A stretch of DNA of 64,000 nucleotides from Allomuricauda sp. (GTDB lineage Bacteria; Bacteroidota; Bacteroidia; Flavobacteriales; Flavobacteriaceae): the NCBI RefSeq assembly GCF_028280385.1, contig NZ_JANQLX010000003.1, positions 248,001-312,000 on the forward strand, in the 5' to 3' direction. Made by a program: the position numbers and the translations under genes. Shown piece after piece: positions 5,983-6,431 of the stretch. Within the stretch, counting starts at the first letter, position 1; each line of letters begins with the position of its first letter. The notes beneath the pieces are model-generated. The model made no database searches and was not told the DNA's origin. It was given only the letters and a program-made list of their open reading frames with translations.

Positions 5983-6023
5983 CAGTCCCATTTCAAAAAG
6001 GGGATACAAATTAAGCCTTGGTG

Positions 6024-6042
6024 CCTGCCTACCGCAGGCAGG
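6024..6042. repeat. Palindromic insertion 1, CCTGCCTACCGCAGGCAGG
   Basis: 7-bp perfect arms, 5-nt loop; interrupts the tRNA fragment between tRNA nt 9 and 10. Confidence 0.85.
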
Positions 6043-6056
6043 GCGGAATTGGTAGA

Positions 6057-6076
6057 CCTGTCTGCCGACAGGCAGG
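6057..6076. repeat. Palindromic insertion 2, CCTGTCTGCCGACAGGCAGG
   Basis: 8-bp stem with one T-G wobble; interrupts the tRNA fragment in the 3' strand of the D-stem (1-nt ambiguity of boundary). Confidence 0.85.
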
Positions 6077-6090
6077 CGCGCTGAAATATT

Positions 6091-6342
6091 GTGTTGAGTA
6101 TTGTGTATGCCATATCAAGTTTGGATTCGAACTACATTTATGTGGGAATGACCAAAAATCTTGAAGAGAGATTAAGAAGGCATAACAGCGGATGGGAAAA
6201 AACGACCAAGCCCTATGCTCCTTTCAAATTGATCTATCAAGAATCATGCAGAGATAGGAGAGAGGCAAGGAAAAGGGAAAAATGTTGGAAGTCGGGAGTT
6301 GGCAAAGAGCAGCTCCGCAAGCTTAGAGATAAGCTTAAATAA
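6091..6342 (+). CDS. GIY-YIG domain endonuclease-like small protein (UvrC N-terminal/YhbQ type)
   Basis: VYAISSLDSNYIYVGMTKNLEERLRRHNSG...PFKLIYQESCRDRREARKREKCWKSGVGKEQLRK; GTG start; stop codon 1 nt before the tRNA. Confidence 0.85.
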   Translation: MLSIVYAISSLDSNYIYVGMTKNLEERLRRHNSGWEKTTKPYAPFKLIYQESCRDRREARKREKCWKSGVGKEQLRKLRDKLK

Positions 6343-6343
6343 T

Positions 6344-6425
6344 GCCTTGGTGGCGGAATTGGTAGACGCGCTGGATTCAAAATCCAGTTCTTTCGGGAGT
6401 GTGGGTTCGATTCCCACCCAAGGTA
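6344..6425 (+). tRNA. tRNA-Leu (anticodon CAA)
   Basis: Acceptor GCCTTGG/CCAAGGT, anticodon stem-loop CTGGA-TTCAAAA-TCCAG, long variable arm TTCTTTCGGGAG, T-arm GTGGGTTCGATTCCCAC. Confidence 0.93.
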
Positions 6426-6431
6426 CATAAG

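Follow-up and report, generated by a model that had tools for sequence, protein, structure and literature searches.

A lone GIY-YIG gene between a palindrome-bearing tRNA-Leu remnant and an intact tRNA-Leu: a candidate family of tRNA-invading mini-elements

The window analysed here, a stretch of 64,000 nucleotides from Allomuricauda sp., contains at 6015-6426 a 5' remnant of tRNA-Leu(CAA) with two palindromes, followed by a GIY-YIG ORF and an intact tRNA-Leu(CAA). Judged from its sequence and that of its relatives, this unit is probably one copy of a family of very small, homing-like elements that invade tRNA genes, the tRNA being kept or regenerated. The arrangement is a recurrent feature rather than a product of chance, and the palindrome-bearing remnant is a standing part of the tRNA-targeting element. 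This was overlooked in a preliminary description of the locus, which noticed neither that a GIY-YIG gene separates the fragment from the intact tRNA nor that the tRNA copy is truncated.

Architecture of the unit

The unit consists of the following parts.

6015..6023, + strand: remnant of tRNA-Leu(CAA), nt 1-9 (GCCTTGGTG), identical to nt 1-9 of the intact tRNA
6024..6042, + strand: palindrome 1, 19 bp (CCTGCCTACCGCAGGCAGG), between nt 9 and 10, the acceptor/D-stem junction
6043..6056, + strand: remnant of tRNA-Leu, nt 10-23 (GCGGAATTGGTAGA), 5' D-stem and D-loop, identical to the intact tRNA
6057..6076, + strand: palindrome 2, 20 bp (CCTGTCTGCCGACAGGCAGG), between nt 23 and 24, the D-loop/3' D-stem edge
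6077..6083, + strand: remnant of tRNA-Leu, nt 24-30 (CGCGCTG), end of the fragment
6091..6342, + strand: ORF of an 83-aa single-domain GIY-YIG endonuclease (Pfam PF01541, E=2e-17)
6344..6426, + strand: intact tRNA-Leu(CAA) without inserts (ARAGORN; Rfam RF00005, 61 bits)

The positions given earlier for the two palindromes were confirmed, as was their absence from the downstream tRNA. The remainder of the upstream copy had been described as intact, which is wrong: only nt 1-30 of 83 are present before the GIY-YIG ORF begins. Palindrome 2 does lie in the D-arm, as had been stated, but at the edge of the D-loop and the 3' strand of the D-stem (with one base of ambiguity) and not within that strand. 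The palindrome family has two matches in the window, against 0.01 expected from shuffled sequences. The palindromes break up the remnant copy of the tRNA, and the intact tRNA-Leu(CAA) keeps the presumed target sequence. The ORF starts with GTG (a TTG at 6094 is an alternative) and stops one base 5' of the intact tRNA.

The profile of the nuclease matched solved structures (PDB) of UPF0213 (E=6e-9) and SLX1 (E=7e-4), and Y6, Y17, G19, R27 and E63 are invariant in A1. The protein thus has the GIY-YIG fold with the conserved Tyr, Arg and Glu residues of SLX1-like enzymes. Carriage of the nuclease by a phage or plasmid was rejected, as no match was found; there was none to the window protein in phage records. 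A group I intron in tRNA-Leu was ruled out, since the Rfam scan of the locus matched the tRNA alone, with no group I intron or other known RNA, and the downstream tRNA is complete. An integrase-type tRNA island was likewise ruled out: there is no integrase between remnant and tRNA, where the GIY-YIG gene is the sole sense-strand ORF of at least 60 aa, and the overlapping ORF on the opposite strand (63 aa) is too short for one.

Empty and occupied sites among congeners

The unit was present in 3 of 37 congeners, namely the window genome (G000), G006 and G028, the latter two reappearing as L071 and L075 in the later set of loci. At the empty site, as in G027 and G005, the same upstream sequence directly joins a single intact tRNA-Leu; in the window this sequence is continuous with nt 1-9 of the remnant (6015..6023). 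In this respect the locus resembles a free-standing homing endonuclease gene: the nuclease ORF is intact, and its target exists in both an occupied and an empty form. G028 contains palindrome 2 and is uninterrupted between nt 9 and 10, so that a pre-insertion site of palindrome 1, as sought in the preliminary description, does exist, and the two insertions are separate events, as proposed there. In G006 palindrome 1 is inverted, its sequence being exactly the reverse complement of the G000 version.

The ORF is under purifying selection: among the three congeners pS was 0.60-0.80 (saturated) and pN 0.15-0.18, with dN far below dS. Because of the saturated synonymous sites, it was considered whether G000 and G006 had each acquired the ORF independently and recently; the neighbouring prs gene of the same three genomes is equally saturated (pS 0.77-0.83), and the ORF may therefore have descended vertically in these two genomes. 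Palindrome 2 is letter-identical in the three congeners, and the remnant identical, despite the saturated synonymous sites, and each remnant equals its own genome's tRNA over nt 1-30. Such identity at this divergence therefore needs constraint or repeated re-creation.

Distribution of the family and its two mirror forms

A collection search yielded the best 80 relatives of the nuclease, mostly from Bacteroidota, with some from CPR and other phyla. The nuclease gene adjoins a tRNA gene (ARAGORN) in 76 of these 80 loci, nearly always for Leu or Ser, and in the remaining four (L099, L119, L134, L135) pieces of tRNA are present in tandem arrays or at contig ends. Within the genus all of the closest relatives adjoin a tRNA, compared to 4 of about 16 more distant GIY-YIG genes. 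The close relatives lie 5' of tRNA-Leu(CAA), Leu(TAA), Arg(ACG) or Arg(TCG), and each is accompanied by a 5' remnant of the same tRNA with a palindrome within it.

A palindrome was present in a tRNA remnant in 79 of the 80 loci, the exception being L130. A pattern scan detected it near the ORF in 69 loci; it was added by reading the sequences in L113, L120, L127, L132, L134, L142, L145, L147 (cut by the contig end) and L150, and that of L110 was counted in its upstream 5' remnant. Within these loci, the 34 kb near the ORF contained 94 palindromes and the 194 kb at greater distance 8.

The family occurs in two mirror forms, remnant-ORF-tRNA (5' form) and tRNA-ORF-remnant (3' form), with remnants of 20-60 nt. 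On a poorly resolved tree the form switched no fewer than 12 times and the amino-acid target no fewer than 7 times. Remnants are found on both sides in L087, L110, L113, L122, L133, L138 and L146, as though an older tRNA had received a cassette composed of ORF and tRNA. The intact tRNA and the remnant are identical in most loci; in contrast, the intact tRNA of L110 ends in CCAAGGTAC and its 3' remnant in CCTTGAGTAC, so that their acceptor stems differ and they are not copies of each other. The intact tRNA of L110 looks as though it was imported. A functional gene is thus restored and a native remnant left, on one or both sides, as in the mORFs of fungal mitochondria (see below).

In L078, L099, L134 and L135 the remnant-palindrome-ORF unit is repeated in tandem. 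A tRNA-Leu(CAA) fragment reaching up to the anticodon stem (nt 1-44) is present in L026 (G029 C1:1456736-1456908), L078 and L127. After a short spacer it is followed by a different tRNA-Leu(CAA), which is complete; in G029 no ORF separates the two.

Position and orientation of the palindromes

In the 5' form the palindromes are inserted after nt 8-9, 14-18 or 22-23; most insertions of the 3' form lie 21, 15 or 9 nt upstream of the tRNA end. Mapped onto the tRNA-Leu cloverleaf, these points fall on the acceptor/D-stem junction, the D-loop, the D-loop/stem edge and the positions between nt 53 and 54, 59 and 60, and 65 and 66. All 75 scored palindromes of the 5' form and 20 of the 21 of the 3' form are at a helix edge or in a loop, none and one, respectively, being inside a helix; these are not independent events, since a tRNA-Leu template was used for the scoring and many loci share ancestry. 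Between nt 23 and 24, CCTGTCTGCCGACAGGCAGG is letter-identical and in the same orientation in 25 loci (two duplicate loci removed), and its reverse complement does not occur. Between nt 9 and 10 the reverse complement of the CCTGTCTGCCGACAGGCAGG form was found four times and the forward form never. Some palindrome variants include the D-loop word GGTAGA. The copies in relatives for which the preliminary description called were found, and their boundaries are fixed at a few sites rather than varying freely. The strong site preference suggested there is strongly supported, as the same few tRNA positions are occupied in loci of several phyla. The other possibility raised there, a structured RNA product, is hypothetical; the hairpins are predicted to fold strongly.

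Palindromes elsewhere and co-occurrence with the nuclease

The palindromes and the nuclease co-occur. Over 61 congeneric genomes, further palindromes elsewhere were detected in 13 of the 15 genomes with a Leu-clade nuclease (recognised by the palindrome next to the match) and in 8 of the 46 without, with means of 3.0 and 0.28 per genome, respectively; the p-value of 2e-6, uncorrected for kinship, is optimistic because the genomes are related. Mobilisation of the RAYT type was rejected, as Y1 transposases were not associated with palindromes over the same 61 genomes (p=1) and had 0 matches in the window genome. The palindromes elsewhere reside in attC-like sites, in a TTCTCGA/TAC repeat and in a tRNA-Arg remnant without an ORF. 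Two palindromes of the same family are located inside integron attC-like sites at L005 1980-2600 (G000 C16:621.5-622.1 kb). In L173, L180, L187, L188, L191 and L192 the palindrome occupies one fixed point, between TTCTCGA and TAC, of another palindromic repeat family.

Proposed mechanism and alternative explanations

We propose that a lone SLX1/UPF0213-like GIY-YIG gene, residing in a tRNA gene with an intact tRNA on one side and a truncated remnant on the other, encodes a nuclease that would open tRNA genes at or near a foldable arm, the D-arm in the 5' form and the T-arm in the 3' form. The opened gene would then be repaired, either from an occupied copy or with tandem duplication, and would thereby receive the ORF together with a tRNA segment or a whole tRNA, which would let the essential tRNA survive. 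The left-over half would be dispensable to the cell and would bear, at its helix edges, a mobile or partner palindrome. SLX1 cuts branched DNA at borders between single and double strands, and palindromes at the helix edges of foldable arms fit an enzyme acting on such borders. By its SLX1-like fold, the nuclease would be the likeliest enzyme to act on the resulting hairpin or cruciform, and the palindrome is probably a partner on which it acts; the spent copy would thereby be marked or blocked, or recombination initiated. Several observations count against the proposal. The intact tRNA retains the presumed target sequence, and the nuclease would nonetheless have to spare its own genome; palindromes are also present outside tRNA genes, and 8 genomes contain them without having a Leu-clade nuclease; and the Arg, Ala and tmRNA relatives have other hairpins. 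More tentatively, the unit may belong to a two-part selfish system, in which the mini-nuclease invades tRNA genes and itself inserts the palindrome at helix edges (tRNA arms, attC hairpins), one intact tRNA always being regenerated.

The palindrome could instead be an independent REP/MITE-like repeat moved by another enzyme, the remnants being a tolerant landing site and the GIY-YIG element a separate entity. Its presence in integron attC-like sites, in another palindromic repeat and in some genomes without a Leu-clade nuclease would agree with this explanation. However, 79 of the 80 nuclease loci carry it in a remnant of 20-60 nt, at the same few positions and in a site-dependent orientation, and its copy number follows the nuclease and not the Y1 transposases, of which the window genome has no match. 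We therefore consider an independent repeat unlikely.

Selection of the hairpins as RNA devices, blocking pairing or processing of the tRNA half or tuning the nuclease mRNA made from the tRNA promoter, seems less likely still. The palindromes always lie in the remnant, occupying the D-arm if it is a 5' remnant and mostly the T-arm if it is a 3' one, and the predicted fold is strong (−36.7 kcal/mol for the window remnant with inserts versus −4.8 kcal/mol without). On the other hand, the insertions leave the arm helices uninterrupted, simple mutations would be a cheaper way to disable a tRNA half, and the same palindrome recurs in non-tRNA DNA. Plain decay, that is, a tandem tRNA duplication with a passenger ORF and palindromes generated by template switching, is very improbable. 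The exact inversion of palindrome 1 between G006 and G000 is what template switching between inverted repeats would produce, and the D-loop word GGTAGA within some variants points in the same direction; but decay can hardly account for a 20-mer that has the same site and orientation in 25 loci and is shared between genera, the ORF is under purifying selection and the association spans phyla.

Relation to known systems

Among the closest parallels are the mobile ORFs (mORFs) known from fungal mitochondria (Allomyces atp6; Glomus atp6, atp9, cox2 and nad3), in which an endonuclease ORF arrives with a replacement gene end (PMC3630166); the enzyme of the Glomus atp6 example is of the LAGLIDADG type (PMC3630166). 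As in the present family, the ORF is inserted in an essential gene and the native end is left as a remnant, whereas the family described here targets bacterial tRNA genes, measures about 0.3 kb and has palindromes in the remnant. SegB of phages T4/T6 (PMC13096335) is also a free-standing GIY-YIG enzyme associated with tRNA genes, and tRNA and nuclease are amplified in tandem there too, but it is a phage-borne homing enzyme without a palindrome-bearing remnant, and the window protein has no phage match. SLX1 and UPF0213 resemble the window nuclease in that its profile matches their solved structures; SLX1, however, is a cellular repair enzyme with a further domain, and the window protein consists of a single 83-aa domain and is associated with tRNA genes. 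REP/RAYT and the Rickettsia palindromic elements are likewise short palindromes invading genes and spacers, unlike which the present ones have no Y1/RAYT link and occupy fixed tRNA-remnant positions beside a nuclease gene. In the open-access literature searched we found no description of the combination of nuclease, tRNA remnant and palindrome, although a prior description elsewhere is possible; the arrangement looks like an undescribed family of tRNA-invading mini-elements. If the proposal is right, the essential tRNA genes of many bacteria would be homing grounds for an element of about 0.3 kb, one of the smallest known, which saves its target by reconstructing it. The family would provide a candidate enzyme for the movement of short palindromes without a transposase and explain sporadic tRNA duplicates and tRNA gene replacement; the action of a lone GIY-YIG domain on hairpin DNA is clearly testable at the bench.

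Related units in the window genome

A second such unit (L007, G000 C7:216371-216583) has a 5' remnant of tRNA-Arg(ACG) with a 32-bp hairpin between nt 9 and 10, and a GIY-YIG ORF that extends into the intact tRNA-Arg. In L010 (G000 C16:274252-274443) an intact tRNA-Ala is followed by a GIY-YIG ORF and a 3' remnant of tRNA-Ala, in which other hairpins replace the anticodon arm and the T-arm, and then by a repeated ORF start. In L008 (G000 C7:299952-300152) a tmRNA is directly followed by a GIY-YIG ORF, with direct repeats on both sides. Finally, the GIY-YIG ORFs of L009 and L011 (G000 C7:283149 and C6:29994) are flanked by palindromes of the ATTCCTGCTTTCGCAGGAAT and ATTTCCGCCTTCGCGGAAAT types, possibly a second pairing of nuclease and palindrome.
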